Origin: a virus
Virus record (IMG/VR): IMGVR_UViG_3300009109_000006
Span: 1 to 58,417 of that record
Direction: 5' to 3' (one strand)
DNA: 58,417 nucleotides
The notes beneath the pieces were generated by a model that saw only the letters and a list, made by a program, of their open reading frames with translations, had not been told where the DNA came from and did no database searches. Positions within the stretch are counted from its first letter, which is position 1; each line of letters begins with the position of its first letter. Both the position numbers and the translations under genes were made by a program. Below, one piece after another: positions 23,690 to 50,785 of this stretch.

Positions 23690-25228
23690 TTAGTTTGTTG
23701 AAACTGGAGTGCCGCTGGCTACTGCCTCCACAAACATCTTCAAGGCACTGTCGTTCTTGGCTGCACTCGGAGTGATGTAGTAGACCGCCCCACTCTTTTG
23801 GCGCTTGCCGACCTCAGTGGGGTCAAGGAATGCACCGTCCGCATAGGAGTAATAGAGGTTGTCGTCTTTGCGACGGTACTCAACGAACTCCCCCAAATCC
23901 CAAAATGCCTGCTGGTTGGTGGAGCGAGACAAATCGGCTGCCTCTTTGTGCGAGTTCACAACGGCTGACACATCCAAAAAAACCCACTCTTGACCACCGC
24001 GCTCGCCCTTCCAAGCCCCTACATGGGCATTGGGGGTGCTCAAAGCGCCCTGGTTCTTGGCAATGTACTCTCTGACCTTCTGCGGCCCAGACCTCGCCCA
24101 CTCATCTAGAGAGAACTGGGCTTCAAGTTCTTCAAAGGTGGCTACTGCATTGCCGGAGCGGCGAAACCTGCCACGCTTTTGGTCAAACGTGAACCCGCCA
24201 TTTGCTGAGGCAAGTGCTGCGAGGTGCGACGCCCCGCCATACATTGACGCTGGAAGGTCGCCGGAGATGGTGTGCGCGGCACCGGCTGTGGTGAACCGCC
24301 CCAACTCGTCGTGGTACGGGTTGAACTTGCGGAGCAACGCAGCCTTCCTGGCAAGCCAGTCTGTCTGGCAACCAACACAGTGTGGCTGCGCCTTGCCCAC
24401 CTTGGCTTGAATGCCCATCTTGTTGGCGTAATCATTAGCGTCACGAAGCACCTCCAAAATGGGGATGCCCACTCGCACCACTTTCATGGTCAGGCCACCC
24501 AGTTTCCCGTCGTCGCTAGCGTCCATGCCCACCACTGTGGCCCAGCGGTGGTGGCCGTCAATGATATAGCCGTCTCTGCTGATGAACACCTCGCCAACGT
24601 CCAGATCAAACTTGCCTTCTTTAGCAGCCTGCAACATCCCGGCCACCTTGGCTCCCACCAACTCTGACTGGCTGGCTTTCAGGTGGGCCGCCTTGACGGT
24701 TTCACGAGTGACCTTGACCCCGCGCTTCTTCAAGTCTTTTACATATGGCTCGGCCAGATCGACCTCCCCACGCTTGTTACGCGGCATCTTGTCGGCTACT
24801 GAGTCTTTGATGGGGTCGCCCTTCAACTGGGGCATCTTGATGCGCGGAATCCCCTTGTGCTCAGCGCAGAACACGTTGGTGCCCGGCACCGACACACGGC
24901 ACAAGTCGTATGTCTTAGCCTTGTCGCCCCTTTCGCTGGCCTCTCTGACTACGTTGCGGAGTTCCACAAGCAGTGTGGACACTTGCTCCACCGACTCCAG
25001 TTCAACATGCTTGCCATCAGCCAGGTGACGAATCGCCTCATTGACATCAGAGGTCTTGATTGGGTTGCGCTTACTACCAGGCTTATCAGCGCCTGCGCTG
25101 CGCCCCGTTTTGTTGGCACCCTCGGCCCCCGTAGTGTTTCCATCAGCCGTAGTGAACCGGCCGATGTCGTCGTGATAAGGGTTGAACTTCCTTAGGTGCG
25201 CTGCTTTACGAACAAGCCACTGCGTCAT
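23690..25228 (-). CDS. Effector-array protein 1: two junction motifs, ParB-like domain plus unknown domain
   Basis: 512 residues. Junction motif KFNPYHDDIGRFTTA starts at K14 and KFNPYHDELGRFTTA at K301. Between them lies a ParB/sulfiredoxin-like domain with FISRDGYIIDGHHRWA (about 215-232). The second module begins GGFTFDQKRGRF and later has HVGAWKGE..GQEWVFLDVSAVV, a pattern I have met in phage proteins without known function. Each motif follows a short basic stretch (LVRKAAHLRK, LARKAALLRK). Presumably a head-associated protein cut at the motifs; this is inference. Confidence 0.75.
   Translation of the reverse strand: MTQWLVRKAAHLRKFNPYHDDIGRFTTADGNTTGAEGANKTGRSAGADKPGSKRNPIKTSDVNEAIRHLADGKHVELESVEQVSTLLVELRNVVREASERGDKAKTYDLCRVSVPGTNVFCAEHKGIPRIKMPQLKGDPIKDSVADKMPRNKRGEVDLAEPYVKDLKKRGVKVTRETVKAAHLKASQSELVGAKVAGMLQAAKEGKFDLDVGEVFISRDGYIIDGHHRWATVVGMDASDDGKLGGLTMKVVRVGIPILEVLRDANDYANKMGIQAKVGKAQPHCVGCQTDWLARKAALLRKFNPYHDELGRFTTAGAAHTISGDLPASMYGGASHLAALASANGGFTFDQKRGRFRRSGNAVATFEELEAQFSLDEWARSGPQKVREYIAKNQGALSTPNAHVGAWKGERGGQEWVFLDVSAVVNSHKEAADLSRSTNQQAFWDLGEFVEYRRKDDNLYYSYADGAFLDPTEVGKRQKSGAVYYITPSAAKNDSALKMFVEAVASGTPVSTN
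24286..24328 (-). repeat. Junction-motif coding repeat
   Basis: DNA encoding KFNPYHDELGRFTTA within effector-array protein 1. The first 25-30 bases after the Lys codon are nearly identical to the other copies in the window (listed in the findings). Confidence 0.85.
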
Positions 25229-25230
25229 GC

Positions 25231-26862
25231 CTACAGAAACTCCACAATGTCTCTGTCAGCGATCTCCGAATAGTCCAAGCCGCGCTCGTCTGCAATCTGC
25301 TGCCACAAGTCGTCAATGGTTCGGACACTGCTGCGGTCATAACGAGAGGTTCCTTCAGGTGCAGCGATCTCATCGTAGAACCTGTCCACCAACTGGCTCG
25401 CCACAGAAGCAATCACCTTGGGGCGTGTGTCGGTCGTCTTCCCACGGTCCCTCGCTCTTTGGGCGATGGTGTGAACTAGCCCCCTCATGTCTGCTAGAGC
25501 CTTGTCGTCAAATGCGTCCCAGGCGTCCAGCGAAGCGTCGGGATCGTCCAGCCCTTGCTTGAGATACTCCTTGTTGAGCGCCCGCACTTTTCTTATCACT
25601 CTGGCGTGATTCTCGGGCACGCGTGTCACAAGGCCCATTAGCCTCGGTGCCCCAGCATTGGTGCTAGTGCGCTCCATCCCGCTAGGGCCACCGTCTCTGG
25701 TGCCACTGCCACCCCCACGACCACCGCTGCCCTCAAACCCCGCAGTAGTCACAGCACTGTTGGCAGTCGTAAACCGCCCAAGTTCATCATGGTACGGGTT
25801 GAACTTGGCTAGCGCAGCGGAGGCCAATGCGCGGCGCTCGCGCTCTTTTCTCTCAAACCTCTCAACCATTCGCTTGCGCCCTTCACGCTCCTGGTCTTCT
25901 CTTTGAGCACGCGTGATTCCTGCGCTAACCGCCACTTCTCTCACCTGCCTTACTGTCACTTTCTCTCCCGTTTTGAGCGAAATATTGTTGGCGATGCGCC
26001 TGTAGTCGCGAGAGCCATACCTTTTGTGACCAGCAAACCTGTCGTCGGTTCTAATGGCGTCTTCAATCGTCGCTCGCAGTTCCTCCTCTGAGCGTGGCTT
26101 GCTCCCCCCAAAGCGAGGGTGGCTCTCAGCAGCCCCCGCACTTCCCTCGGCTGTAGCGAAGCGCCCTAGTTCGTCGTGATAGGGGTTGAACTTGGCGAGG
26201 AAAGCGTTGGCCAGCGTGCGCCGCTTCCGCTTCCGCTTCTCCCATTCTGTGCTGTCCACATGCACTTCAGATGGCGTCGGCTGCCCTTTCTTGAAGCGTT
26301 CGATCTGGGCAAGCCGCTTTTTGGCCTCAGCCTCAGTGTCGTACTCCCCCATGAGCCTCCCGCTTTCTGAGTACACACACCAGCGGCCATTCGGCTTCTG
26401 TCGAACCACCTTGCTGATGTCACTGCTGTTCTTGCCGATGTCGGTGTAGCCGCCGTCTGGAAGGTCGATGCGCTGACGCCTGCCAGTGCCATGGACTGAG
26501 AAGCCCACATACCCACCCTTCTTGACCTGATCCCACACACGCCCATCATTCACCCTGAACCCGATCCACCATCCGGTGGGGACGGAGCCCGGCCTGATGC
26601 CAAGAGCATCCTGCTTCTCTTTGGTGAGCACGATGGATTCCACCAGAGTGGACACGCCCTTTTGAACGTGCATCTCTCCCCCATCACGCGAATGGAGAAC
26701 GTAGTGATACGCCGCCTTCTCTAGTTCGCTTTCACTGTCGATGAAGTCGTCCTGGCGATCCAGCAGCACGAGGTCGTCGGCTGTCTTGATGACATTGGCC
26801 CAGCCAAACACCAACTGCTGGTCGTCTTCAACTTTGACAATATCGGCCCTAATCGGCTTCAT
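25231..26862 (-). CDS. XkdF-like prohead protease fused to two motif-led modules
   Basis: 543 residues from ATG 26862. Residues 1-150 match the XkdF putative phage serine protease: VFGWANVI, EMHVQKG (H65) and STLVESIVLTKE (S76 region), then GWWIGFRVND and GGYVGFSVHG. A helical linker leads to junction motifs at K224 (KFNPYHDELGRFATA) and K353, the latter followed by TTAGFEGSGGRGGGS. The two added modules are basic, helical and unrecognised. XkdF enzymes mature capsids by cleaving head proteins, so the protease carries the same motif as its neighbours, the best hint that the motif is a processing or targeting signal. Confidence 0.82.
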   Translation of the reverse strand: MKPIRADIVKVEDDQQLVFGWANVIKTADDLVLLDRQDDFIDSESELEKAAYHYVLHSRDGGEMHVQKGVSTLVESIVLTKEKQDALGIRPGSVPTGWWIGFRVNDGRVWDQVKKGGYVGFSVHGTGRRQRIDLPDGGYTDIGKNSSDISKVVRQKPNGRWCVYSESGRLMGEYDTEAEAKKRLAQIERFKKGQPTPSEVHVDSTEWEKRKRKRRTLANAFLAKFNPYHDELGRFATAEGSAGAAESHPRFGGSKPRSEEELRATIEDAIRTDDRFAGHKRYGSRDYRRIANNISLKTGEKVTVRQVREVAVSAGITRAQREDQEREGRKRMVERFERKERERRALASAALAKFNPYHDELGRFTTANSAVTTAGFEGSGGRGGGSGTRDGGPSGMERTSTNAGAPRLMGLVTRVPENHARVIRKVRALNKEYLKQGLDDPDASLDAWDAFDDKALADMRGLVHTIAQRARDRGKTTDTRPKVIASVASQLVDRFYDEIAAPEGTSRYDRSSVRTIDDLWQQIADERGLDYSEIADRDIVEFL

Positions 26863-26913
26863 TCGCGACCGTCCCTGGCAACAGAAATACAAAGACGCCC
26901 GTATGTTAGTTGT

Positions 26914-27165
26914 CTAGGCCCCTTTCAGGAAAGCCTCTGCTGGCACGAACCGAAATACCGGCGTGCCATTCATAATGGCTTGCAAGCGTTCAGTCGGAGC
27001 ATCGTCAGCGCCATACCACTTGCCCCTGGCCTGGATGGATGCAAGCGGGGTGGGTGGGTATACGGTTCCGTTGTTGGCGTTCACAATGTAGGCAGTGTCT
27101 TCAGGGGTGTTTGTGTCTTGCACTACATAGAGCGAGTCTCGGTGGCCCAACACTTTGATTGTCAC
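26914..27165 (-). CDS. Small hypothetical protein in the effector array
   Basis: 83 residues, no junction motif. Its start overlaps the stop of the DUF3626-like protein as ATGA. It could be an immunity or accessory factor for that protein, or an independent gene; no family recognised. Confidence 0.7.
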   Translation of the reverse strand: MTIKVLGHRDSLYVVQDTNTPEDTAYIVNANNGTVYPPTPLASIQARGKWYGADDAPTERLQAIMNGTPVFRFVPAEAFLKGA

Positions 27166-28637
27166 TTGGCCATCTCCTCAATAAACCGGTCACGAACTGA
27201 GTCGTTCAGGTTGGCTACGTCGTAGTCACCCTCCAAGTCGTAGCCAAAAGAGTCGTTGATGACAACCGGCCACTTACGCTTGCTTATCAAGTCCACTGCT
27301 GCCAACAAGGCATCGCTCGGACGGTGGTATCCACCGCCCGTGTCCAGCGAAACCACATCGGTGCTGATGTTGAGAGCGCCGTGAACCTGTAGTTCCACAT
27401 AGTTGCCTTCCTCAAACTCCTCGCGCACATACCCGCTGTAGTCCAGCCCCTCCCTGATGGCTCCCTGCACCCCCGGCAAACGGTCCAACCTTAACATCAC
27501 AGTGTCGGCAACTTCTCGCTCCCACAAAGAACTCCCCTGCTTAGTGTTCGCCATGGCTAGGAGCGCCCAGTTGGGGAGAGGAGACTCTTGCACACGGAAC
27601 GCTGTTTGCATCCCAAAAGAGTCGCCAATGGTGACGGTTGCCCTACTCATAGCGCTGGGGCTAAGCGCGAGCCGGTACTCGCCGTACTGCTCCACCTTGC
27701 CGTCCCACTCGTCATGTTCTGAGGTCCGTAAGTACCCGTACACTGGCCGCTGTGTGTTTGTGGCCCCCTGGGGAACATTCATCCCAGTCTCCTCAATAAA
27801 CATTCGCCGCGCGTTGTTGAATCCCACACTGGATGAGCCGCCCGCCTGAAACCCATTGAGGTATTCATCCCCAACCACCGCCTCTAGCAAGTCGTCACTC
27901 CCCACCCTGATTGCTGGTGTGGCGTAGGGGTCGTCAAGTTTGTGCCGGACGGCTGATGCAATCTCAAGCCCTAGTTCTTCGGCGGTCGGCACAACCCCCA
28001 ACTCTTGCGCCCGATCCATGTCCACATCCACCGTTCGGCCCCCATCGTGGATGCCAGTCACTAGCCCCAAGGCCACCAGTGGGGCTGCCTCCTCTTCCCC
28101 CACGCTCGTCACATACCGCACCAGTGTCTCGGTCACCAGAGATTCATAGTCGGCGATATCCACATGAAGCGACTGTTGCACTAGTTGCTTGAAGCCAGCA
28201 GCCTGCTCCTCGGTCCACACGCCCGGCTGGTAGTCCAGGCCCGGAATGTCGGCTGGCTCGTCAAGTGTGCGTTCGGCGTCCGCTTCTCTCAGTTTGTTGT
28301 ACCACCTCTGTCGGCGGTCGATGTCTCGGATGTAGCCCTCCCAATCACGCACTTCCAGGGAGGCTTCTCCACCATCAAACAACTCACCCTGGTCGGGGTC
28401 ACGCCCCATGGCCTCAAGCGCCCTCGCTCTCAGGCCCGACTTAGGGTGGTAATGAGGGCCGCCCGCAGCCCCAGTCACATCCTTGTCTGCTGTGGTGAAC
28501 CGCCCCAACTCGTCGTGGTACGGGTTGAACTTGGAGATTGAGGACGAAAGTCCTAGAGCAGCGTAGGTGTCGTCGGTGCGCTTCGGCCAGTCTTGGTTTT
28601 TGATGGAGTCGTCGAAGTTGACTTTTGGCAGTGTCAT
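27162..28637 (-). CDS. Effector-array protein: DUF3626-like domain
   Basis: 491 residues. The N terminus starts with VNFDDSIKNQDWPKRTDDTYAALG, the second repeat type found inside the giant MuF protein, and then junction motif KFNPYHDELGRFTTA at K36. The C-terminal half has RPVYGYLRTSEHDEW, EQYGEYRLAL, TIGDSFG and YVELQVHGALNISTDV, the pattern of DUF3626. It overlaps the MuF gene stop by four bases, as if detached from its C terminus. Confidence 0.75.
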   Translation of the reverse strand: MTLPKVNFDDSIKNQDWPKRTDDTYAALGLSSSISKFNPYHDELGRFTTADKDVTGAAGGPHYHPKSGLRARALEAMGRDPDQGELFDGGEASLEVRDWEGYIRDIDRRQRWYNKLREADAERTLDEPADIPGLDYQPGVWTEEQAAGFKQLVQQSLHVDIADYESLVTETLVRYVTSVGEEEAAPLVALGLVTGIHDGGRTVDVDMDRAQELGVVPTAEELGLEIASAVRHKLDDPYATPAIRVGSDDLLEAVVGDEYLNGFQAGGSSSVGFNNARRMFIEETGMNVPQGATNTQRPVYGYLRTSEHDEWDGKVEQYGEYRLALSPSAMSRATVTIGDSFGMQTAFRVQESPLPNWALLAMANTKQGSSLWEREVADTVMLRLDRLPGVQGAIREGLDYSGYVREEFEEGNYVELQVHGALNISTDVVSLDTGGGYHRPSDALLAAVDLISKRKWPVVINDSFGYDLEGDYDVANLNDSVRDRFIEEMAK

Positions 28638-31600
28638 GTCTCCAACACCGTCCTCCCCACATTGTCCGTGTAGGCAATCGTTTGAGCCTCAAAAGGCACC
28701 GTGCCATCCACAATGACCTCACCTTCTGACAAGCACCCCCACCCTTGGCTTGCCACCCCCACAATGGCACTGACTGGCACTTCAGCCTTCACGACATAGG
28801 CAACCTCGTCTGCTTCCACCCCTCCATAACGCATAAATGGGATTGCTGCCGACAAAGACCATGACCAACTGCTAAGCGGCGATGACGCGTTGACAACCTT
28901 GCTGCCAAGTTCAGAATAAGGCGTCGAGCGGCTCTTGGGTATTTGGACCCCCCGGTAGAGAGTGACCGTTTGCTGTGGCCCTCCGACATCTTTCATCGCT
29001 TCCTGTGCAAGACGCTTAGAGGCTGCCAGATACGCCTTGTTGGCAGCACTGCTCATGTGGGCCAACGTCATCACACGAGCAACAAACTTTTCGTCAGAGG
29101 AGGCAAACAGCAAGGTGGAAGCGTTCCTCACAGCCTGAGAAGCCTTGATGGGGCGTGACATGCTATCGGCCACGCTGCCCAAGTTGTGCAGGATCGCGCT
29201 CTCCGCTATCTCCTTACCGTTTTGGTAGTCGTTGTCGCTGAGGCCGTAGAACACACGGCTGCTGATCTCCTCATCAGACCAGCCAGCCTCTTGGGCCGCT
29301 GCCAGTTGGAGTGCCATGGCACCCTCGGAATGATCTCCGGCCGTTTGCGACCAGCGGCCGTGTACTTCTTCCACCAATGCTTCCGCGGCTTCCATCCCAG
29401 TGAGCCAGTAGTCCGGCTCCCAAGCGAGGAACATCTCGTTGACGGCGGCCAGTTCGTCCGGGCGCATTTCAAAGGCAGTGTTAGCAATGCCCTCGGCCTT
29501 GACTCTTGATCTGGTGCGCGTTGACAGGCCCACAACAGCAGTGGAGTTTGAGTTACGTTCGTTCAGGTCCAACTCAACTGTATAGGTCAGTCCCGCACTG
29601 AGATCCCCAGGCTCTCGCACCCAGTCGGTGTAAGTGACGGATGAGCGCACTGCCAGCGAAGGGCCATGTGCAGCCAGCAGTTCGGCTTCCCTTTGGCCCC
29701 AGCCCAGGGCGGTGCTAAGGATTTGGCTAGCGGCCAGCCTTCCCCCGGCTTGATCCGATGACGCTGTTGCCGCCCCAGTGACATTGTTGTCGGCGGTGGT
29801 AAACCTGCCCAGTTCATCATGGTAGGGGTTGAACTTCTTGATGCCCCCAGCCTCAATCTTCCCCCCCCAATATCCCCACTCAATCAGGTCATTGCCTCCA
29901 CTGCGAATAGTGTGGGCTGGAACTTCGGCAGAAAGCACTGCCCAGTTCACTCGGGAAGACACCCACATCCCCTTCCCGCTTTCATCATCTGGCCACACTG
30001 CATCAGCGTCAAAGTATTCATATACTCGGTCCTGGCCGTGCTGCTCGGCATAAGAGCGTGAAAGCGCAACCCAATCTCCTGAGTTGATCGCAGTAGTCCC
30101 CGGCGGGACTGACCTATAAACCGTGACGAGAGCGTCTGGTCGCCCACGCGCATGGCGAATAGCACTCAGCGTTTCCTGCTGTATGGCTCGGTCGCCAAAC
30201 ATATACAGGCTAGGGCTTGTGTAAACATCGTCAGGGAACCAGCCGTCGTCGTCCAGCAAGTCGTAGAGCGGTGCGCTGTCAGCGGATGGCTTGTGCATAC
30301 CTTGGTAAAGGTCGCTGGCCACCCCAGTTACGTCTTTGTCCGCAGTCGTAAACCTCCCTAGTTCATCATGGTAGGGGTTGAACTTGGCAACATCGTCAAA
30401 AGTGTTCACTTCGTTCCCGTAGTTTGAGGACGGCAGTGGGCCACTTGGCTTATCGTTCTCTACATACATCACTGTGCCGTCTGGATTGGGCAAGTACGAC
30501 CCCACCTGCTCGACAACAACAACCCACTCAACACCCTGAGTCTGTTCTCCGGGTGCATAAGTCTTGTGGCCTCGCCCTGGCTCTAGGTAGTCCTTCCACC
30601 CGACTACCTCTGGGTCAACCCCCTTGGGCTGAAAGCGGTCAACGATCTTGAACACACCCTGGGTGATGTGCTCAATAGAACCGTCGAAGCGCCACCCCTT
30701 GTTGGGTGCCCACACTGGGTTGGGATGGACCTGTGGGGCACCGGTGTCGCCCACATAAGACTTGGCCCCAGGCTTTAGGACCACTAGCACTTCCGGGGCA
30801 CCCTTTTCCCTGTCGTTATGCGTAAACCGCATAGCCATGCTTGGGTCAGGGCTAAATGCGGTGAGTGCAGTCCCATATTTGGTGCCGATGGGTGCAGACA
30901 ACAGCGGAGAGGCACGGTCAACATCAGACATCCCACGATGGAGCAAGGGTGAGGTTTCATCAGCCCCTCCAACTGCCCTCATGGCTTCGTATGCCCTGGC
31001 TACAACGCCCCCAACTGCTTCGTCAACAGTCGTCTGGGCACCATAACTTCTCGACCAACGCCATGCGTCATCTCTTTTCTCCCCAGCCCTAAGGCGGTCT
31101 AGGGTCACAGCATCAGCCGCATCGCGTTCACGCATTGCACTGGCGTCGCCGGTAGCAATTGTCTCGCTAAGGGCATCGGTGACATGCTCAACAGACTTTG
31201 GCGGTGGCAGCCCTACGATGGCTGCTGAAGCGTGGCGCAGCCGATAGTTGCCTTCCCAGTAAACCCACTCGTTGTCAAACCGGCCAAGCGCCTCCTCGGC
31301 TGAAGCGGCCCGTGTCTCCAACTGGAGGTCACCATATTGAATGGTGTACTGGACCTCGCCGCCAGCGGACTCTTGCGTTATCGAAGCGCCTTTGCTCCTT
31401 AGCGGCGTTCTGAACAACTCACGCCCTTGAGCGCTCCAGAGTTCCTCAGAGCCAGCGACCGGCGGGAGGTTTCCCCCTGAAATCGTAACGGCATAACGAG
31501 CAGTGGTGAACCTGCCTAGTTCGTCATGGTAGGGGTTGAACTTAGTGACCACCTTGTTGCGTTCTCGGTCATACACCCATTCGTCTGCGATATACGTCTC

Positions 31601-34600
31601 GCCAGTGTTATGAAGATGCTCGGCCATGCCCGCACGCCGGTCGTCTTCACGGCGCTGCCAGTACCGGGCTTCTCTTTGCTTCAGTTCAGCGTGCTGAGCC
31701 GCGGCATTAGGGGTGCCCACTTCCTGAACAAGCCGCTGGAGGTCATTGTTTGGTGCGGTGCCCAAACGACCCAAGGCATCTCTAACTCCAATGGTCCAGT
31801 GTTGTGTTGAAAAGCGCGGCTTGCCCAAACCGATTCGGTCGTACCTTGGGATGTTGGCCCACACGTCAATCGTGGAGTCATAGGGGATTTCACGACTATG
31901 GGCAGCCACTCGGACCGTAACGTCCTGGGTCTCAGTGCCCACACTCACATACTCAGCCTCAGACACTGCTGACTTGCTGTGCCTCGGACTGAAGCCGTGG
32001 TCTTGGAAGGTGCGCTTGATCGCGTTCACAAGACCCTCTGGCGTCCCGTCAAATCCCTGTTCGGGCACTCGCTGACTGCCTGTCGTGTTGTTAGCGGCAG
32101 TCGTAAAGCGCCCTCTGTCATCGTGATATGGGTTGAACTTCACAATCGGCAACGGGAGTCCCAGCGCCTCATAGGTGTCTGGCGTGCGCTTCGGCCAGTC
32201 TTGGTTTTCATCCGTGGCATCAAGGTTGATGGTGGGGATTGCTTTCCTCAGGCTCCCGGCTGGTGCTGGCCTCCCCGCCACACCCTTAGTGATGTCACTG
32301 GCTTGAGTGTCCACCTTGGCAACGAAAGAGTCGCCGTTGACAACCACCTCACCTTCAACAATGCAACCGAAGCCCTGTGAACTCACACCAACGATGGAAC
32401 TGACTGGTATCTCTGCCCGTAATACAACTCCTTCTTGGTCGTAACCCACGGCAAACTTCCGTGCCGTGGGGCGCGACACCGACCACGACGACAGTGGTGA
32501 CGACTTACTACGGATCTTTCCCCCTGTGACAGCCTGCTCGCCGCCGCCGTAAAACTCATCACCAAATAGACTTGCGACAGTTGTATACACACCCCTGAAC
32601 AGGGTGATAGTGGGGGTGTCGCCAACTGCTTCTTTCAGGCGCTTCTGGCTCACCCGCTGGTTGGCTGCTAGCACCGCCTTGTAAGCGGCCCCCAACAACT
32701 CACTATAAATAAAGGTTTGGGCAGTCACAGTGCCTATCGCTCTTGGTGGCGCACCGACAACCGGGCCAGCGACAGCAATGCTCAAGTAAGGGCTAAGTGT
32801 GTCACCCTGCACCACCGTTCTTATGGCTGCACTAGAAGTTTCGTGGTCAAGCAGTCCCGCGGTGTTGCCCCCAGCGTTCGCGATTACCTGCTTGGCTATC
32901 TCACGACCCGCAGCCACCACATCGTTTGGAGTTTCACGAAACACCCGGTTGGAAATCTGTTCGTTGTCCCAACCCTGCATCTCTGCTGCTGCCAACTGTA
33001 TTGCAAGTGCGTGTGGATTGCCACTGGAAGTGGCAGCCCACTGGCTGTGCTGCCTGGCCACGAACTTTTCAGGAGCGTTTGATGTTGTAATAAAGCCGGT
33101 CTTTCTGTTGCCGTAAGTCCCTTGATCTAGTTCTCCGTACAACTCCGCCATGGCCTGCGTACACGCCGCCCGTTCGTCGTCGGTCATCTCATCAGCGATG
33201 GCCTTAGCGCCCCGCCGCTTGATTTCTCTACGCTCGCGCCGAGTGACAACAACCTCAACCTGCGCCCCACGCGTTTGTACGCCCCGAGTAACGGGCTCCC
33301 AACCGGAAATAAACTCAACAGCACCGGCAGGAGCGTCTCTAAGCAACGCCTTGTCAGCACCAGATAGTTTGCCCAGTGATACTTCAGCCATCGAAATGGC
33401 AACTCCCCGGTTGGCCCTCATAGCATTACCACTGGTGGTGACTGCTGCGTCCGCGGTAGTGAACCTGCCCAGTTCGTCGTGATAGGGATTGAACTTGGTA
33501 ACTGCGCTGTAGACCACTGGCGTGGGGCGGCCATTGCGCTCCACCAGTTGCAAGATGGATTCGCCATCTTTGGGGCAAGTGCCCGTGTTGGTTACAGGGG
33601 CAGCAAACCGTTGCATCAACTTGTGAACTGCTGCCGGGCGCGACTTGTTTTCTTGTGCAGCCCCCTTCCTCAACTTGCTTCGCCACTGAAGGTCGTCACG
33701 CCTATCCATGGCGTCGGGCGGTGTGTAGTCACCCCACGACCCGCCACCTTGGCGTGAGGTCCGCTGCTGGGCTTCGTACCACTGCTTGCGGGTGAACTTG
33801 TACTTGCCAAGCGGCGACAAGTAAGCGTCGTTGCCTACCTTGACCACCCGTTGCATTGGATCGGCCTGTGTAGTTGGGGTGTGGCCTCGGCTCAACCCGT
33901 ACAGAACCACTTCTCCACAATCAAAGTCAGCGACCTGAACAGCCACTGCTCTCGCACACTCTTTGCCTAGCACTACCCGCAAATCTCGTGAATAGGCAGG
34001 CAGCGACTCCAGGCTTAGTGGCCCATCATGGGTGGCAAAGCCCGCCTTTGTGACTTCAAGCCCGCTGCCAAACATCTGCTTGAACTTGACGATGCGTGGC
34101 GCTCTCGCCCGGAACAAGACTGCCATCGTGTCAGCGAACTCGGCCCCTGACATGGCAATACCGGTCACAGGGTTCAGTTCGCCACTTCCGGTAGTTTCAA
34201 CCCTGAGCGAAATCCCCAGTGCTTCGTAAGTGTCAGGTGTCCGCTTCGGCCAGTCTTGGTTTTCATCCGTGGCATCAAGGTTGATGGGCAGAATGGCTTT
34301 GTGAACCTCTCCAGCCGGAGCAGGGCCACCAAGGCTTGCACTCTTTTCAAGATCGTCGCCCATCACAATGGCATCAAACGAGTCGCCATTCACAATGACT
34401 TCGCCTTCTGAAATACAGCCGAACCCGTTGGTGCTTAGCCCCACGATAGAACTGATGGGCACCTCTGCCTCTAGGACCACCCCTTTGAGGCCAGCAAATG
34501 TTTCAGCAACAGCCCTAACCGCTGACCATGACGACAGTGGGGCCGACTCACTACGGACTTTGGTGGCCGATGGCAGCCGGTACTCAACATGGGTCGGACT

Positions 34601-36418
34601 GTGGACCACTCGCTCCTTGTCAACCATCACCCCGCGGTACAGCGTGATTGTTTTAGCATCGCCCACTACCCAAGGAAGGTCGTGGCGTGTAGCGCGCTGT
34701 TCTGCTGCCAATACAGCCTTGTTGGCTGCCGCAGCAAACCGATGCTCCACCAGAGCCATGGCCGCAATCTGTGGCGTCACCGGCTGCATCCAGTTGGACG
34801 CCATGACCAGGCTGTCCTGTGGAGGCAGGTGCCGGTTGACAACTTCTTCCTGCCCAGCGCTACTCATTAGCGCCCACGGCGTGGGGTCTTTCTCAACTTG
34901 TGACACTGCCTTATCGGCAGCGGCACGAGCCACTTCCATGCCGCCTGGGTCTAGACCACGAAACACTCGGTTGGCGATCTGCTCACTGTCCCACTCTTGC
35001 ATCTCCGCTGCGGCCAACTGGAGGGCCAGCGATTTTGAGTCGCTATCTCCTGCTGTTTTCGCCCACATATCGTGGCGTTCTGCAACAACTACTTCTGCCA
35101 GGGCCAGCGCATCATTGTTCAGAGTGTCACCCCACTGACTCGCACACACCTCTATTTCTGCGTCAGTCATAAAGCCAGCCACCCATTCGGCACCCCCATC
35201 CTTGATCTCTGCGCGGTCCTCAACTCTAAAGTTGAGCGCGACGACACCATCGTCGCCGTCATCGGACAGGCTGCCAACAGCAGTCTCCTCGCTGCCATCA
35301 AATATGATTATGTCGCCCTCGCGTGCTTCTTCAAGCATCTTTTCTTCAAGCGGGTCTAGTTCCCGACCGCTCATCTGCACGCCCAGCATGGCCATAGCAA
35401 CAACCAACTCTCTGTTGGCGGCAAAAGCGTCACCACTCACACTGCCGCCCCCACGGCCGCCCCTGCCCTCAAACCCCGCAGTAGTCACAGTATTGTCTGC
35501 GGTCGTGAACCGCCCAAGTTCATCGTGATAGGGGTTGAACTTCACAATGTGCTTGGTGATCCCTGGGAATACCAGGCCCATAGCGCACCGGCATTGTGGG
35601 TGAACGTCGGTTGGTACATCCACAGGGCCAGTGTCAGTAGCCCAAGGCTGGTGTAGCCCGACCAGCACGCCGTCCATGGGAGCACACACTGGACACGTTC
35701 GCTCGTCCTGGGCTGTGATCCAGACTCGCTGTGTATCGGCTGGGAGCAACCGTCGCTTCTCTGCCTGATCCCAGAACATCTGCTGGCCGTGGCTTCGTGC
35801 TCTGGCCACTTCGGTGCGCGCAACCATCTTGGCCCTATACGACAAGAGCCGGTTGGCATAGCCGTTAGACAACTTGGCTGCCTGGCTTGGCGCTTGCCCT
35901 TGGTTCAGCAGGTTTTGCTCATACCTTTGGACCGCCACAGCGTGCTGTGGAAGTAGCCCGACATTGCGGCGAATCTGGCGCACCAGTTCATCCCGGTGCA
36001 TCCCTGTGACAATGGCTTCTTCAACTGTGTCTGCGAGAGTACGCATCGTGTTTGACTGGACATCTACAAGAGTTCGGTTTGCCAAATCTCGTGCCACAGT
36101 GATGACTGATGGCTGAGTGACATCCCAAGCCGTCTCAAACCCGACTTCTTTGGCAGTGATGGAGCCAGCGCCCTTCACGGCTTGCTGTACCAGCCGGGCG
36201 ATCTCGTCCGTATTCATGGACAACTGTTCGATACGAGCAGGCAAATCGTCGGGCACGATTTGGCCCTGCTGGAGTTGGCGCATCATGGTGGGCAAATCTC
36301 CGGTGCTGGAGAACTGCTTGATCGCGTCAAAGAAGGCGCGCCGCACCTTCCGCTCCATAGTGTCGGAGTACGCCGACAGTGCCTGGAGGAGTGCGGCCCC
36401 ACTAAAGCGCCGGGGCAT
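28634..36418 (-). CDS. Giant MuF-type minor head protein with six motif-separated effector modules
   Basis: 2,594 residues. Residues 1-292 are a MuF/SPP1 gp7-like head protein (RTEVARARSHGQQMF, WITAQDERTCPVCAPMDG, HPQCRC). Junction motifs follow at K293, K975, K1427, K1626, K2012 and K2195. Module 2 ends in an ADP-ribosyltransferase: R595 in LYRG, LSSWS 628-632, EGE 671-673. Module 3 repeats this: R1275, LSSWS from 1309, EGE 1355-1357. The last module too: R2489, LSSWS from 2515, EGE 2565-2567. The module from 1626 is a divergent ART-like domain (LLHRGM, TALTAFSPDP); that from 2012 has VTVYRSVPPG...GDWVALSRSYA, also ART-like. Bacterial MuF proteins are known toxin carriers; five enzyme-like modules in one chain is extraordinary. 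Confidence 0.85.
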   Translation of the reverse strand: MPRRFSGAALLQALSAYSDTMERKVRRAFFDAIKQFSSTGDLPTMMRQLQQGQIVPDDLPARIEQLSMNTDEIARLVQQAVKGAGSITAKEVGFETAWDVTQPSVITVARDLANRTLVDVQSNTMRTLADTVEEAIVTGMHRDELVRQIRRNVGLLPQHAVAVQRYEQNLLNQGQAPSQAAKLSNGYANRLLSYRAKMVARTEVARARSHGQQMFWDQAEKRRLLPADTQRVWITAQDERTCPVCAPMDGVLVGLHQPWATDTGPVDVPTDVHPQCRCAMGLVFPGITKHIVKFNPYHDELGRFTTADNTVTTAGFEGRGGRGGGSVSGDAFAANRELVVAMAMLGVQMSGRELDPLEEKMLEEAREGDIIIFDGSEETAVGSLSDDGDDGVVALNFRVEDRAEIKDGGAEWVAGFMTDAEIEVCASQWGDTLNNDALALAEVVVAERHDMWAKTAGDSDSKSLALQLAAAEMQEWDSEQIANRVFRGLDPGGMEVARAAADKAVSQVEKDPTPWALMSSAGQEEVVNRHLPPQDSLVMASNWMQPVTPQIAAMALVEHRFAAAANKAVLAAEQRATRHDLPWVVGDAKTITLYRGVMVDKERVVHSPTHVEYRLPSATKVRSESAPLSSWSAVRAVAETFAGLKGVVLEAEVPISSIVGLSTNGFGCISEGEVIVNGDSFDAIVMGDDLEKSASLGGPAPAGEVHKAILPINLDATDENQDWPKRTPDTYEALGISLRVETTGSGELNPVTGIAMSGAEFADTMAVLFRARAPRIVKFKQMFGSGLEVTKAGFATHDGPLSLESLPAYSRDLRVVLGKECARAVAVQVADFDCGEVVLYGLSRGHTPTTQADPMQRVVKVGNDAYLSPLGKYKFTRKQWYEAQQRTSRQGGGSWGDYTPPDAMDRRDDLQWRSKLRKGAAQENKSRPAAVHKLMQRFAAPVTNTGTCPKDGESILQLVERNGRPTPVVYSAVTKFNPYHDELGRFTTADAAVTTSGNAMRANRGVAISMAEVSLGKLSGADKALLRDAPAGAVEFISGWEPVTRGVQTRGAQVEVVVTRRERREIKRRGAKAIADEMTDDERAACTQAMAELYGELDQGTYGNRKTGFITTSNAPEKFVARQHSQWAATSSGNPHALAIQLAAAEMQGWDNEQISNRVFRETPNDVVAAGREIAKQVIANAGGNTAGLLDHETSSAAIRTVVQGDTLSPYLSIAVAGPVVGAPPRAIGTVTAQTFIYSELLGAAYKAVLAANQRVSQKRLKEAVGDTPTITLFRGVYTTVASLFGDEFYGGGEQAVTGGKIRSKSSPLSSWSVSRPTARKFAVGYDQEGVVLRAEIPVSSIVGVSSQGFGCIVEGEVVVNGDSFVAKVDTQASDITKGVAGRPAPAGSLRKAIPTINLDATDENQDWPKRTPDTYEALGLPLPIVKFNPYHDDRGRFTTAANNTTGSQRVPEQGFDGTPEGLVNAIKRTFQDHGFSPRHSKSAVSEAEYVSVGTETQDVTVRVAAHSREIPYDSTIDVWANIPRYDRIGLGKPRFSTQHWTIGVRDALGRLGTAPNNDLQRLVQEVGTPNAAAQHAELKQREARYWQRREDDRRAGMAEHLHNTGETYIADEWVYDRERNKVVTKFNPYHDELGRFTTARYAVTISGGNLPPVAGSEELWSAQGRELFRTPLRSKGASITQESAGGEVQYTIQYGDLQLETRAASAEEALGRFDNEWVYWEGNYRLRHASAAIVGLPPPKSVEHVTDALSETIATGDASAMRERDAADAVTLDRLRAGEKRDDAWRWSRSYGAQTTVDEAVGGVVARAYEAMRAVGGADETSPLLHRGMSDVDRASPLLSAPIGTKYGTALTAFSPDPSMAMRFTHNDREKGAPEVLVVLKPGAKSYVGDTGAPQVHPNPVWAPNKGWRFDGSIEHITQGVFKIVDRFQPKGVDPEVVGWKDYLEPGRGHKTYAPGEQTQGVEWVVVVEQVGSYLPNPDGTVMYVENDKPSGPLPSSNYGNEVNTFDDVAKFNPYHDELGRFTTADKDVTGVASDLYQGMHKPSADSAPLYDLLDDDGWFPDDVYTSPSLYMFGDRAIQQETLSAIRHARGRPDALVTVYRSVPPGTTAINSGDWVALSRSYAEQHGQDRVYEYFDADAVWPDDESGKGMWVSSRVNWAVLSAEVPAHTIRSGGNDLIEWGYWGGKIEAGGIKKFNPYHDELGRFTTADNNVTGAATASSDQAGGRLAASQILSTALGWGQREAELLAAHGPSLAVRSSVTYTDWVREPGDLSAGLTYTVELDLNERNSNSTAVVGLSTRTRSRVKAEGIANTAFEMRPDELAAVNEMFLAWEPDYWLTGMEAAEALVEEVHGRWSQTAGDHSEGAMALQLAAAQEAGWSDEEISSRVFYGLSDNDYQNGKEIAESAILHNLGSVADSMSRPIKASQAVRNASTLLFASSDEKFVARVMTLAHMSSAANKAYLAASKRLAQEAMKDVGGPQQTVTLYRGVQIPKSRSTPYSELGSKVVNASSPLSSWSWSLSAAIPFMRYGGVEADEVAYVVKAEVPVSAIVGVASQGWGCLSEGEVIVDGTVPFEAQTIAYTDNVGRTVLET
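29794..29836 (-). repeat. Junction-motif coding repeat (K2195)
   Basis: Encodes KFNPYHDELGRFTTADNNVTG, the junction before the last ADP-ribosyltransferase module of the giant MuF protein. Confidence 0.85.
30343..30385 (-). repeat. Junction-motif coding repeat (K2012)
   Basis: Encodes KFNPYHDELGRFTTADKDVTG before the YRSVP/GDWV module; the six residues after the motif match the DUF3626-like protein (TTADKDVTG). Confidence 0.85.
31501..31543 (-). repeat. Junction-motif coding repeat (K1626)
   Basis: Encodes KFNPYHDELGRFTTARYAVT before the divergent ART-like module. Confidence 0.85.
32098..32140 (-). repeat. Junction-motif coding repeat (K1427)
   Basis: Encodes KFNPYHDDRGRFTTAANNTTG before a ~190-residue module of unknown function. 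Confidence 0.85.
33454..33496 (-). repeat. Junction-motif coding repeat (K975)
   Basis: Encodes KFNPYHDELGRFTTADAAVTT before the second ADP-ribosyltransferase module. Confidence 0.85.
35500..35542 (-). repeat. Junction-motif coding repeat (K293)
   Basis: Encodes KFNPYHDELGRFTTADNTVTT directly after the MuF domain, followed by GFEGRGGRGGGS. This is the MuF/effector boundary. Confidence 0.85.
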
Positions 36419-36420
36419 GG

Positions 36421-37878
36421 CTACTCCTTAGTGTTGGGTGTGGGCTGCCGCTGGGCAACAGGCTCCGGTTGCTTTTCGGCAGAGCGGGCGTTGCCCTGCC
36501 CTGGCACACTTTGACCCGGAACCTGGCCTGTGCGCTGTTGACGAGCAGGGAGGCTTGCCACTTGCCGGAGGTAGTTCTCCAGTTCGTCGTCTGGGAACAG
36601 GGGCACTCCCGCCCCTGCCAGCACCTGAATGTAGTTGCCCAACTCCCCCAGCGGCGGCGTCTCAATGTCCCCGTACTCCAGCGTAGGGAGCCGGGTCATG
36701 TCGAACCCGTTCAACTTGAACAGGCGGGGAATGGCGTACTCGTTGAAGACGGTCCTGATGATCTCCAGCCACGTTCTGAGTGATGTGGCAAAGAGGTCGG
36801 TCTTGTCTACTGAAAGCGCAAAACTGCCGTGCTGCTGCTGCCCCAGCAGAATGAAGTCGGCCAGGACAGAGGTGGCAATGCGCTGGTCGTACCGCTGAAT
36901 CACTGTGTTGGTGTCAAACTCTCTGGACCCGCCAGACGAAAGCAACTCCAGCCGGTACAACTGGTGCCCGTTCTCGTCATAGATCGCCGGGAGAATCACG
37001 CCTTCTTGCTGATCCCGGCGAATGTTGGACACCATGTCTTGGTAGTCGGTGAACACCGACTTTTGCCCATCCGTAGCGTCACTCCGCATGATCTGAGGGT
37101 CAACGTACATAACTGGGAACCCAGCCAGATCACGTTCGATCCCAATGGCCTCGATTTCTTCAATCCGCTTCTTGAAGTAGTACGGCCGGTACGCAGTCCT
37201 AAGGATGGACCTGCCCTCTGGGTTGTTCTTGTTGGTGGAGGTGCGGAATAGAAGCGCCTTCTCCATGGGGATGTCCACAAGGTGATAGTGCGGGGGAGGC
37301 GACTGGCGCATCCCCAAAATGCCACCCTTCTCATCGAAAATCCACTCAATGCGGGTTTCCTGAGCACGGACGGGAATCTTGCGCCAGCCCACCCGACCAT
37401 CATCAAACCGACTGCGCTTGCTGGAGTCTTCTTGACTGGGGCCGTTACGGTGCTTGTAGACAATCTCGTGGTATGACCACCCAAACACCAGCATGGACAG
37501 AACCTCTGAGATGAGGTCTTCCCAAGAGTGGCTCATGTCGTGCATACACGAATCGACAAAAACAGCGGCCATCTCGTCGTCATGCTTCTTGGACTTGGAC
37601 TGCACTCGCCACGCCACCTGGCGCACCAGCCGGTCAATGGCGAACAGAATGGCTCCTACCACGGGGTCGTTGTCCCGCATCTCGCGGTAGACCTCGTTGG
37701 CTCTAAACCCGGCGAGTTGGGGGAGGAACTCCTCGGTGACAAAGCCTGCCGAGCGGCGAAGCCCTGTGAGGCCCGTTTCATCAAACGGGTCGAACTTTAG
37801 ATCAAACTCTTTGCCGTCGTACCCAGACCGTGCTGGGCCAGTGCCACCATCGGCACCGGTAGTGTTTGGGCTAGGCAC
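36421..37878 (-). CDS. Portal protein
   Basis: 485 residues. NDPVVGAILFAIDRLVRQVAWRV, the central FGWSYHEIVYKHR and later ILRTAYRPYYFKKRIEEIEAIGIERDLAGFP are signatures of the Mu gp29/DUF935-like portals. It forms the dodecameric vertex through which DNA is packaged and ejected. It precedes the MuF gene with a two-base gap. Confidence 0.9.
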   Translation of the reverse strand: MPSPNTTGADGGTGPARSGYDGKEFDLKFDPFDETGLTGLRRSAGFVTEEFLPQLAGFRANEVYREMRDNDPVVGAILFAIDRLVRQVAWRVQSKSKKHDDEMAAVFVDSCMHDMSHSWEDLISEVLSMLVFGWSYHEIVYKHRNGPSQEDSSKRSRFDDGRVGWRKIPVRAQETRIEWIFDEKGGILGMRQSPPPHYHLVDIPMEKALLFRTSTNKNNPEGRSILRTAYRPYYFKKRIEEIEAIGIERDLAGFPVMYVDPQIMRSDATDGQKSVFTDYQDMVSNIRRDQQEGVILPAIYDENGHQLYRLELLSSGGSREFDTNTVIQRYDQRIATSVLADFILLGQQQHGSFALSVDKTDLFATSLRTWLEIIRTVFNEYAIPRLFKLNGFDMTRLPTLEYGDIETPPLGELGNYIQVLAGAGVPLFPDDELENYLRQVASLPARQQRTGQVPGQSVPGQGNARSAEKQPEPVAQRQPTPNTKE

Positions 37879-37978
37879 CTATTGCTCCGATTGGTTCTCA
37901 TGGGGCCGGACGGCCAGCACAATAACACATGAGAGCGTCGGTACTCGCTCCGCTGTCAGCACCAATGTGGCCCCAGCG

Positions 37979-38305
37979 TCAGACCTTCCAGAACTCTTTG
38001 GCCTTGACCTCGCCGTCGTCGTCTGATCGGAGAACCCTCATCGGTTCGCTCGGATGGCGCGGACCTGGGCGACGGTGGTGAACTGTCGCGGGGGGATGCG
38101 CTGGTCGTTCATGCGGTGATCCATGACGGCGCGGACCGTCGCCCACGTCACTCGGCAGATCAACTCCTCCACGGCCGCCGCTTCCCTCAAAACCAGCCGT
38201 GGTGACCGCATTCCGGGCGGTTGTAAACCTCCCACGCTCATCGTGATAGGGGTTGAACTTGGCAACGTGTTCGGCTCGCCGCTTCAACCAGTCAAACTTT
38301 TTCAC
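37979..38305 (-). CDS. Orphan junction-motif protein, reading frame probably broken
   Basis: A 108-codon frame from GTG 38305 (after AAGAAAAGGG). Junction motif KFNPYHDERGRFTTA lies at 38260 and down, followed by TTAGFEGSGGRGG as in the protease and MuF proteins. After GGRGG the frame turns Pro/His/Arg-rich, while another frame (38038-38185) shows strong G/C third positions and a natural sequence (WATVRAVMDHRMNDQ). The last 20 codons (MRVLRSDDDG...) start by ATGA overlap with that frame's stop at 38038. Either a frameshift or overlapping tiny genes. Confidence 0.5.
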   Translation of the reverse strand: MKKFDWLKRRAEHVAKFNPYHDERGRFTTARNAVTTAGFEGSGGRGGVDLPSDVGDGPRRHGSPHERPAHPPATVHHRRPGPRHPSEPMRVLRSDDDGEVKAKEFWKV

Positions 38306-38321
38306 TTCCACAGCCCTTTTC

Positions 38322-39359
38322 TTAGTGGTCCAAGTACACACAATACTCGGCTGATACCCCGTGCTTAGGGTGAACCATGAGAAGCCACTGCGAAGGGCGT
38401 CCCACTGCGGCCAACTGCTCCTGAGCGTATGTGTTGTGACTCTCCGTGCTGCCGTTTACCCGTGCAGTAATGGTGTTCAAGGTAACTCTTGTCGGCTGGT
38501 GCCAGTGGCCGATCAAGACCTCGTTGAACTCCTCAGGGACGCCGCCAACGGCCCAGCCCCAAGTCTTCTTGGCCAGCCCGTAAAAGGGAAACCCCCCAAA
38601 CCCGCCTCCCCTGATCTGGTCACCATGGGCTAGCAGGAAGCCGTGGTCCCCGATGCGGTCCACCGCGTACCATGCCCGCTCGTCTTTCTCCCAGGGCACA
38701 TACCAAGACAGCCGCTTCTCGCCACCCATGATCTGACGGCAGATGTTGTAGAGCATCCTGTCTGCGTTGCTCTCGCCGTTGTAATCCTTTCGGGCACGCC
38801 CGCCCAGCGAACCATGGTTGCCGATCACTCCGACGACATGAACCGACTCAAACATCGTCAGGGCACGGCGCAAGAAGTTGCACAGGATGCGTGGGCCGTC
38901 AACCGTCATCTGTTGGTAGAGCGACGAGTCGATTAGGTGCGCCTGGCCAGGGAAGATCATCTCCCCCTCTACGATGTCCCCCAGCAGGTAGACCTTCAGG
39001 GTTTTGATCGGGATGGCCTCTCGGTGCATCCCCACAATCGTTTCCAGTTTGTCGGCATAGCGTTCAATCCGCTCCTCGCAGATTTCACTGCTGTACCCCG
39101 GAGTTTGCTTGCCCAACTGCCAGTCCGACAGCACTGCCACGGCGACCTGTTCGCCCTTTTTGCGACTGTCTTTCTTTGGTGCGGCTACTGGGGGAATCGT
39201 GAGTCCTGAGGAGGCATCTCTGGCAGCCCGGTAGACGGCTTCGACCAGTTCCTCCCCCCGATCTTTTGCCTTTTGAAGTTGGCGGGATAGTCGCGCAATC
39301 GTGCTGCGTAGATCATCCACTGTGGACGCTTCATTGAGACTGTCTTGGAAGTCAGCCAC
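38322..39359 (-). CDS. Metallophosphoesterase
   Basis: 345 residues with the calcineurin-like set: DWQ in VAVLSDWQLGK, GDIVEGE, GNHGS, LAHGDQ and GHWH. The N-terminal ~80 residues form a coiled coil. This class includes SbcD/Mre11-type nucleases and phage phosphatases; substrate unknown. It lies between portal-side and lysis/terminase genes. Confidence 0.82.
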   Translation of the reverse strand: MADFQDSLNEASTVDDLRSTIARLSRQLQKAKDRGEELVEAVYRAARDASSGLTIPPVAAPKKDSRKKGEQVAVAVLSDWQLGKQTPGYSSEICEERIERYADKLETIVGMHREAIPIKTLKVYLLGDIVEGEMIFPGQAHLIDSSLYQQMTVDGPRILCNFLRRALTMFESVHVVGVIGNHGSLGGRARKDYNGESNADRMLYNICRQIMGGEKRLSWYVPWEKDERAWYAVDRIGDHGFLLAHGDQIRGGGFGGFPFYGLAKKTWGWAVGGVPEEFNEVLIGHWHQPTRVTLNTITARVNGSTESHNTYAQEQLAAVGRPSQWLLMVHPKHGVSAEYCVYLDH

Positions 39360-50082: not shown

Positions 50083-50089
50083 GCCACGA

Positions 50090-50770: not shown

Positions 50771-50785
50771 AAGTTTCCTTTCTTT

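Follow-up and report, generated by a model that had tools for sequence, protein, structure and literature searches.

A recurrent peptide tag at module junctions of head-associated phage proteins, with a possible role in freeing packaged effectors

The question raised by the viral record IMGVR_UViG_3300009109_000006 is why one short peptide should recur, in frame, throughout a run of neighboring genes around the portal. The record was analyzed over its whole length of 58,417 bases (hereafter, the window), and the element in question is a 15-residue tag present in five open reading frames (ORFs), among them a prohead protease of the XkdF type and a 2,594-residue protein headed by a MuF domain. 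An earlier note on this DNA had read the tag as a cleavage or capsid-loading junction, by which the phage would package a set of separate effectors for injection.

The twelve in-frame copies described in that note were all confirmed. When all six frames of the window were scanned, they were located on the minus strand, each at the expected Lys codon (the upper coordinate of each tag in Table 1), with BLOSUM62 scores of 76–85 compared to 31 for the runner-up site in any frame. A profile hidden Markov model (HMM), built from the tag and its flanks at many loci, recovered the same twelve copies and no others; none is present in the window's genes for capsid, scaffold-like or tail proteins. A degenerate DNA pattern of the tag likewise gave 12 minus-strand matches in the record, while its reversed control gave none. 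Identity extends over all 15 residues in eight copies, over 14 in two and over 13 in two, and 12 of the 15 positions are invariant. Six copies lie in the MuF-headed ORF (28634–36418), two each in ORFs 23690–25228 and 25231–26892, and one each in ORFs 27162–28637 and 37979–38341. In related sequences, the constraint extends three residues beyond GRF, as [TSA]-x-[AG]. The flexible segment reported behind the tag is real. The short basic/Ala/Leu helix ahead of it is clear, by eye, in five of the twelve copies (25189, 24328, 26193, 25806 and 38260), so that the helix exists but "usually", as the note had it, goes too far. Similarly, the five adjacent proteins stand as five ORFs, but one of them (37979–38341) looks decayed because its reading turns Pro/His/Arg-rich beyond the tag, and it is probably the remnant of a cassette.

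When the window copies were compared in 66 pairs, 60 of 990 residue comparisons differed. At identical residues, the same codon was used at a frequency of 0.503 compared to 0.439 expected from the codon usage of the phage, with 21 of 2000 simulations reaching the observed value; synonymous sites are mostly randomized and a small excess of codon identity is left. Since synonymous codons are near random while few residues differ, it is the peptide and not the DNA that is conserved, by selection on the protein. On the same grounds, a DNA-level signal (recombination site or RNA element) was discarded as the main cause. The TTC bias at the first Phe of the tag fits the TTC preference ahead of Asn codons in these ORFs, in a count to which the tags contribute. 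We also rejected a recent duplication of entire units, as nearly identical DNA is found only in copies 24328 and 28532 (44/45). Local DNA similarity adjoins some window tags (repeats D3 and D4). D4 is a direct repeat of the pre-tag segment inside the MuF chain and forms the start of the 491-residue ORF 27162–28637, which looks like a detached cassette. Another copy of the pre-tag segment, NLDATDENQDWPKRTPDTYEALG, at about residues 711–740 of the MuF protein (window 34215–34300), has no tag behind it and is perhaps a lost junction.

The tag recurs well beyond this phage. In IMG/VR, the KFNPYHDxxGRF DNA pattern was found in 53 stretches on 49 contigs, three of them from the window's own phage, whereas its codon-reversed control had 0 matches; the NPNHD form was found in 28 stretches. 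In bacterial and archaeal genomes, FNPxHDxxGRF occurred in 18 stretches, mostly from Alphaproteobacteria, the remaining contigs including one Ruminococcus, Nitrososphaeraceae and Methanosaeta. Among named phages, tblastn (E values of 0.03–8, residues checked) identified as tag-bearing only the Nitrososphaera provirus Pro-Nvie1 and Myoviridae ctUhy936, the latter having a variant tag in its portal and also in its prohead protease; another tblastn of tag segments returned two unrelated weak matches. The tag occurs in viruses of both bacteria and archaea. The archaeal portal of Pro-Nvie1 (locus L119, 4429–5841) carries its tag near the C-terminus, and the next genes are annotated as RelA/SpoT-like and as protease/major capsid protein.

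For the window's type of tag (HD-GRF, abbreviated HD), what stands on either side was determined with Pfam in 97 non-redundant tag ORFs holding 123 tags, taken from the loci found and the window. Among 46 pre-tag segments of at least 70 residues, matches were obtained to Phage_portal (20), MuF (5), Portal_Mu (3), XkdF (1) and S78 (1), that is, to head proteins in 27–30 segments overall, as overlaps are possible; DUF6321, DUF7717, Hint_2 and a VapB-like family matched once each. By contrast, 116 post-tag segments of at least 60 residues included two XkdF matches and none to portal or MuF (lower-bound Fisher p of 3e-16). Other families matched there were ADP-ribosyltransferase (ART) in five, ART-PolyVal in three, and the lysins glucosaminidase and CHAP, 2H/RNA-ligase, AKAP7-type 2H, DUF3626 and VapB-like families in two each. 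Single segments matched Zeta toxin, a papain-fold toxin, a CdiA-type RNase, topoisomerase IB (two models), an ATLF-type domain, RelA/SpoT, GNAT, ParB, DUF6321 and oxidoreductase models. Tags within one chain are spaced by a median of 231 residues (10–90% range, 145–473), and near-N-terminal HD tags are often preceded by a short hydrophobic stretch. The order is a head protein or short N-terminal segment, then the tag, a Gly-rich linker and often a recognizable effector. Together with the recurrence of the motif, this bears out the claim that it marks module junctions in head-associated genes, many of the modules being effector-like.

Association with head genes was assessed in 38 records, namely 37 contigs of at least 9 kb with an HD tag plus the window. 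Some of them are mutually related (e.g., L008 and L020). The set excludes contigs below that size, the window's own phage and a contig that is apparently a duplicate (L024/L028) of that of L008. The control consisted of the 20 contigs that reached 9 kb among 26 found with one random 15-mer. XkdF exceeded its cut-off in 17/38 records compared to 0/20 random viral records, MuF (E ≤ 1e-3) was present in 17/38 and 0/20, and the portal family PF04860 (E ≤ 1e-3) in 19/38 and 3/20. At least one of XkdF, MuF, S78 and PF04860 at E ≤ 1e-3 was detected in 32/38 compared to 3/20, an association in part accounted for by tag ORFs that are portals or MuF proteins themselves. The motif does not occur mainly in proteins unlinked to heads, the outcome that the earlier note had named as a refutation of its reading.

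Other viruses carry tags of a different wording. A search with the ParB-like effector, in which the tag was not used as a pattern, gave at least 80 loci (67 non-redundant), and a recognized tag dialect lay upstream of ParB in 31 of the 67 non-redundant relatives among the matches listed. The dialects seen are HD-GRF, QPRDExGRW, HDQSxHGNW, GHPFRGNQW, GSGNFGHxGRPG, a Cys-containing form and others; L240 and L241 each have seven copies of HDQSxHGNW, L272 has five of GHPFRGNQ and L262 four of GSGNFGHxGRPG. Scans with GHPFRGNQ, HDQSxHGNW and QPRDxGRW yielded at least 120 stretches each, without a reversed control, which was made for KFNPYHDxxGRF alone, and some QPRD matches look like chance (e.g., an identical short ORF ending QPRDEHGRWIP in several loci). 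GHPFRGNQ and HDQSxHGNW reach up to nine copies per locus among the matches listed. The HDQSxHGNW arrays of L240, L241, L437 and L472 (up to nine tags per locus) have nearly the length of the window array, and those of GHPFRGNQ in L350, L340 and L354 (up to nine copies per locus) include one 1,957-residue ORF with six. No matches were obtained by tblastn with other dialects among named phages, perhaps due to the low-complexity filter.

Different dialects occupy aligned positions. In the XkdF tail, the window and its relative L062 carry the HD tag, L062 having KFNQNHDELGQF at the place of KFNPYHDELGRFATA (window 26149–26193), while L257, L303 and L026 have GHPFRGNQW at the aligned place with ParB directly behind it in the same ORF. 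Residues outside the searched letters are also shared: behind the aromatic end, T/S/A takes the first position in 95% of HD, 99% of HDQS, 82% of QPRD and 63% of GHPF tags, and G/A takes the third in 81%, 82%, 54% and 74%, respectively. The first tag lies within 60 residues of the ORF start in 55/117 HD, 40/121 GHPF, 51/106 HDQS and 26/101 QPRD ORFs, measured on stop-to-stop ORFs, some of which are clipped by locus ends. A single dialect was found in 111/124 loci and in 73/79 ORFs with at least two tags, figures biased upward because the loci were mostly gathered by the pattern of one dialect; mixed loci (L010, L026 and L303) show that dialects can coexist. For GHPF/HDQS, all 115 pre-tag segments of at least 90 residues and 100 of 273 post-tag segments were analyzed. 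The former matched XkdF (7), S78 (7), MuF (5) and portals (3), or 15–22 overall with overlaps possible, in a family list covering 25 of 28 families; the latter matched ART (8), Zeta toxin (5), XkdF (1) and MuF (1), giving a lower-bound p of 0.004 for the head-protein contrast. In record sets hand-picked from longer contigs, XkdF over cut-off was present in three of 22 QPRD records, which also had S78 in seven and MuF in six (E ≤ 1e-3), and in 14 of 30 GHPF/HDQS records.

Several contigs hold multiple portal-like stretches. Of 56 non-redundant portal copies off locus edges, 32 were full, 15 were N-truncated yet reached the portal C-terminus, and nine were of other kinds, so that truncated duplicate portal cassettes exist and 47/56 copies reach the C-terminus. 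A tag lies within 200 nucleotides of the portal end in 20/32 full and 7/15 N-truncated copies. Among ten small ORFs lying between portal cassettes, the NTF2-fold immunity family Imm-NTF2-2 was over cut-off in two (L030:2593–2967 and L054:1390–1722); three of the other eight had sub-cut-off matches (two Cys_rich_CPCC, one unrelated) and five had no match. By analogy, these cassettes resemble polymorphic toxins with orphan cassettes, the portal acting as trunk, and the tag-bearing ones may be toxins. L157 (5035–6438) holds a truncated portal in fusion with the Ntox37 toxin domain, and no tag was recognized in it. One phage type (L008, L020, L045 and L028; contigs of 26.4 and 22.2 kb) has seven portal-profile matches in one record, two with internal stops, several truncated and some followed by tags, which gives it the look of a portal-based cassette locus.

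The genes and modules of the window are collected in Table 1. ORF 25231–26892 is assigned to the XkdF/Peptidase_S78_2 family by its profile match and conserved His and Ser, residues D35, H65, W110 and S122 being invariant in 37 aligned sequences. In ORF 23690–25228, the module with DGHHRW, which we take to be ParB-like from the PHROG and Pfam names of its relatives, was aligned with 10 homologues, and DGHHxW is invariant in all 11 sequences. The R-S-E active-site pattern of ADP-ribosyltransferases is present in three copies (LYRG/LFRG, SSWS, EGE). Homologues of module E in L032 and L205 likewise stand behind a tag. No peptidase domain was detected by Pfam in the MuF chain. Elsewhere in the window (45605–46909 and 49036–53449), PHROGs identified a ParB-like partition/nuclease gene, a UvsX-like recombinase and a DNA polymerase.

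Table 1. Tags, genes and modules of the window, with the basis of each assignment (E, E value)
Feature	Coordinates	Strand	Basis
Tag KFNPYHDDIGRFTTA	25145–25189	minus	six-frame scan + profile HMM
Tag KFNPYHDELGRFTTA	24284–24328	minus	six-frame scan + profile HMM
Tag KFNPYHDELGRFATA	26149–26193	minus	six-frame scan + profile HMM
Tag KFNPYHDELGRFTTA	25762–25806	minus	six-frame scan + profile HMM
Tag KFNPYHDELGRFTTA	28488–28532	minus	six-frame scan + profile HMM
Tag KFNPYHDELGRFTTA, immediately behind MuF domain	35498–35542	minus	six-frame scan + profile HMM
Tag KFNPYHDELGRFTTA	33452–33496	minus	six-frame scan + profile HMM
Tag KFNPYHDDRGRFTTA	32096–32140	minus	six-frame scan + profile HMM
Tag KFNPYHDELGRFTTA	31499–31543	minus	six-frame scan + profile HMM
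Tag KFNPYHDELGRFTTA	30341–30385	minus	six-frame scan + profile HMM
Tag KFNPYHDELGRFTTA	29792–29836	minus	six-frame scan + profile HMM
Tag KFNPYHDERGRFTTA	38216–38260	minus	six-frame scan + profile HMM
Major capsid protein, tag-free	21418–22377	minus	phrog_1005 E 4.9e-96; profile HMM
Scaffold/protease-C-terminus-like protein, tag-free	22780–23589	minus	phrog_80 E 3.3e-05; profile HMM
512-residue ORF: N-terminal helix, tag, ParB-like module (DGHHRW), second tag, further module	23690–25228	minus	phrog_2859 E 7.6e-18
XkdF-type prohead protease (Peptidase_S78_2) with two tag-module units	25231–26892	minus	PF14550 E 1.5e-21
491-residue ORF: near-copy of MuF-internal pre-tag segment, tag, DUF3626-like module	27162–28637	minus	PF12294 E 1.4e-05, sub-cut-off
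2,594-residue MuF-headed protein, six tags	28634–36418	minus	PF04233 E 1.3e-08 (residues 128–280), phrog_3517 E 5.4e-32
ART-like module, copy 1 (R..SSWS..EGE pattern)	34376–35221	minus	motifs
ART-like module, copy 2	32324–33247	minus	motifs
ART-like module, copy 3	28691–29527	minus	motifs
Module E, phrog_2579-like	29849–30289	minus	phrog_2579 E 9.7e-29
Portal protein (Mu type), tag-free in the window phage	36421–37878	minus	PF06074 E 2.9e-33; profile HMM
120-residue ORF upstream of portal: helix, tag, decayed downstream sequence	37979–38341	minus	reading of ORF

Structure models were obtained for two of these proteins with AlphaFold2. In the third ART-like module with its tag, residues 1–101 had a predicted local distance difference test (pLDDT) score below 50 (model mean, 70); Foldseek found nothing in the PDB at E ≤ 0.001, and the one match from a profile search of the PDB with the module was at chance level. 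In XkdF, the two tags fall in blocks with pLDDT values of 31–38 and 46–67, compared to values near or above 90 over most of the protease domain. Tag and linker are of low confidence in both models, which constitute weak evidence on the tags, as few aligned sequences cover them.

Taken from sequence comparison, our preferred explanation, to which we give about an even chance, is that the tag is a portable linear element marking the N-terminal boundary of an effector cartridge on head-associated proteins, freed by head-maturation cleavage. Since the tag is tied to portal, MuF and protease, we infer that it works in the virion, where it is probably a processing site of head maturation. A cartridge consists of an optional short helix, the tag K-[FY]-N-P-[YN]-H-D-E-x-G-R-F-[TSA]-x-[AG], a Gly/Ser/Asp linker and a domain; it stands behind a portal, MuF or maturation protease, alone with a near-N-terminal tag, or in arrays as in the window. 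During maturation, a phage protease (XkdF in the window phage, another elsewhere) would cut at or just past the tag, perhaps after [FW]-[TSA]-x-[AG], where, as a guess, the small +3 residue would suit. An effector fused to the portal ring or to the 2,594-residue chain would become a free protein inside the capsid and leave it along with the DNA, and the tag edge would double as the swap point of cartridges.

Processing is preferred over simple targeting because effectors fused to portal or MuF already belong to the head and yet keep the tag. The portal stays in the virion, so that an effector bound to it would need release to enter the host, and release is likely for this reason. Processing is also in keeping with what prohead proteases are known to cut, namely short N-terminal propeptides (20 and 24 residues) and their own C-terminal part (PMC10052503), as well as the head-packaged defense protein DarA of P1 (PMC12810830); tags lie at equivalent places, near N-termini and in the protease C-terminal part. 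Also in its favor are the recurrence of [TSA] at +1 and [AG] at +3 in four dialects and the low model confidence of tag and linker.

The main rival to processing is docking, with or without cutting. In its form without cleavage, in the manner of a T4 capsid targeting sequence or an encapsulin cargo peptide, helix and tag would dock on the portal, the scaffold or the inner capsid and pull the effector into the procapsid, which we regard as unlikely, if by no means negligible. The length and conservation of the tag fit binding, and the first tag lies close to the ORF start in many ORFs, as in the 55/117 with HD tags. Further, HD copies are more alike at variable positions within a phage than between phages (0.60 vs 0.38; 0/2000 permutations; contig groups partly hand-set), as expected with a co-evolving partner or from common descent, and T4 targeting needs only 10 N-terminal residues (PMC9026906). 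However, the tag is kept behind portal and MuF, and one chain has six where one would do.

That the tag is a passive boundary, a flexible linker at which cartridges recombine with no role in the virion, seems to us improbable. Duplicate portal cassettes do keep the portal C-terminus (47/56, with 15/56 N-truncated), local DNA similarity does adjoin some window tags (D3, D4), and L062 retains XkdF, helix and tag while its next module has no blastp match to that of the window. Nevertheless, with synonymous sites almost saturated, the preserved feature is not DNA identity, and a passive linker would hardly hold 12/15 positions invariant over 12 copies. Self-cleavage has very little to recommend it as an explanation: the NPxH of the HD type is like the N-PTH autocleavage site of FlhB/YscU, and 139/139 HD-type tags have N at position 3 and 90% have P at position 4 (largely fixed by the search patterns), but the QPRD type has D/S/N there, the GHPF and HDQS pattern letters contain no NPxH, and no folded domain surrounds the tag in the XkdF model.

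Several results weigh against the processing reading itself. The portal propeptide of SPN3US is N-terminal, whereas the tags stand behind portals, and conservation over 12–15 residues is long for a cut site, which suggests binding as much as cutting. The capsid and scaffold-like proteins of the window are tag-free by profile HMM, and the protease's own tags are modeled undocked, outside the folded domain. XkdF is over cut-off in only 17/38 HD-tag records, S78 is not enriched (4/38 vs 2/20), and neither is present (E ≤ 1e-3) in 12/38, although these records may be fragments; in GHPF/HDQS records, PF04860 portals are not enriched (5/30 vs 3/20). As to effectors, most HD post-tag segments have no Pfam match, some matches are to non-effector families (oxidoreductase, VapB-like), the ART assignment rests on motifs, and the Pro-Nvie1 portal has only about 50 residues behind its tag. 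GNAT, phosphatase, ART-PolyVal, Nudix and other effector-type domains also precede GHPF/HDQS tags, which arrays would produce but which makes the order less sharp. Finally, 36/67 listed ParB relatives have no recognized upstream tag (three are clipped by the contig edge), and the dialect patterns were written after the sequences had been viewed. Of the earlier interpretation, the marking of junctions and the wide spread in head-associated genes stand, while a simple XkdF cut site has evidence against it.

Somewhat short of an even chance, in our estimate, is a wider proposal: a general cargo code in tailed viruses of bacteria and archaea, in which interchangeable tags split a head protein from an injected effector and are read by the head-maturation machinery. 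Portal, MuF and protease would be the trunks of swappable polymorphic effector systems, among them toxin-immunity sets that have a portal as their base and are accompanied by orphan cassettes. Most of the tags concerned (HD-GRF, QPRD-GRW, HDQS-HGNW, GHPFRGNQ-W, GSGNFGHxGRPG and others) end in aromatic-[TSA]-x-[GA] followed by a Gly-rich linker. In Rhs/CdiA-type toxins, too, a variable C-terminal domain follows a conserved boundary and is accompanied by an immunity gene and displaced cassettes, whereas the trunk here is a phage portal and its tag-bearing cassettes are toxins only presumptively.

Polyvalent proteins have been proposed to be packaged and injected, with processing by zincin-like peptidases (Iyer et al. 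2017, PMC5512222). As in those, ART, ParB-like, 2H, RelA/SpoT and lysin chains lie beside head genes and form MuF or portal fusions. The 2,594-residue chain joins MuF, three ART-like copies and further modules, and portal, XkdF, capsid and MuF genes form one run. Unlike here, the passages of PMC5512222 considered describe no junction peptide, and its main text lacks "linker", "conserved motif", "XkdF" and "spacer". The window also resembles MuF polymorphic toxins (Jamet et al. 2017, PMC5576092; Bxa, PMC11699363), which have a MuF N-terminus, C-terminal toxins such as ART, a portal neighborhood and small immunity ORFs behind the toxin. The MuF chain has the N-terminal MuF domain (PF04233, E 1.3e-08) and a toxin-type C-terminal domain (ART-like by motif only); its ORF runs into the large ORF that follows, so that no small ORF lies directly behind it, and no immunity gene was recognized in the window. 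In those toxins MuF is the trunk, whereas in the present case several modules are set apart by tags, trunks include portal and protease as well, and portal cassettes are duplicated; the words "motif", "linker", "cleav" and "orphan" do not occur in PMC5576092. The T4 capsid targeting sequence, N-terminal on head-packaged proteins, is removed by the head protease, and Alt is an injected ART (PMC9026906, PMC10052503). Like it and prohead-protease propeptides, the tag is a short peptide on head-associated proteins; it starts within 60 residues of the ORF start in 55/117 HD ORFs and farther in for the others. Unlike the T4 sequence with its 10 essential residues, it is also internal, repeated and 12–15 residues long, and its cleavage is putative. 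Published work already describes effectors fused to MuF, to the portal and to the head protease, as well as polyvalent proteins with several effectors (PMC5512222, PMC9503650, PMC5576092, PMC3482391, PMC11699363). In topic and tag-string searches of the open-access literature, neither the junction tag nor its dialects nor cassettes with a portal as trunk turned up.

The proteins that enter a host with phage DNA are, to our knowledge, mostly uncharted, and packaged effectors have few recognizable sequence signals outside T4-like systems. If the tag delimits effector modules, cargo could be read directly from sequence, domains of unknown function included, and mutating the tag would test precisely how a protein tethered to the head is loaded and freed. 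If portal genes act as trunks of toxin-immunity cassettes, polymorphic toxins would extend beyond MuF, and a partner that reads the dialects would be worth looking for. The tags thereby allow us to ask how viruses load, release and swap proteins that they possibly inject.

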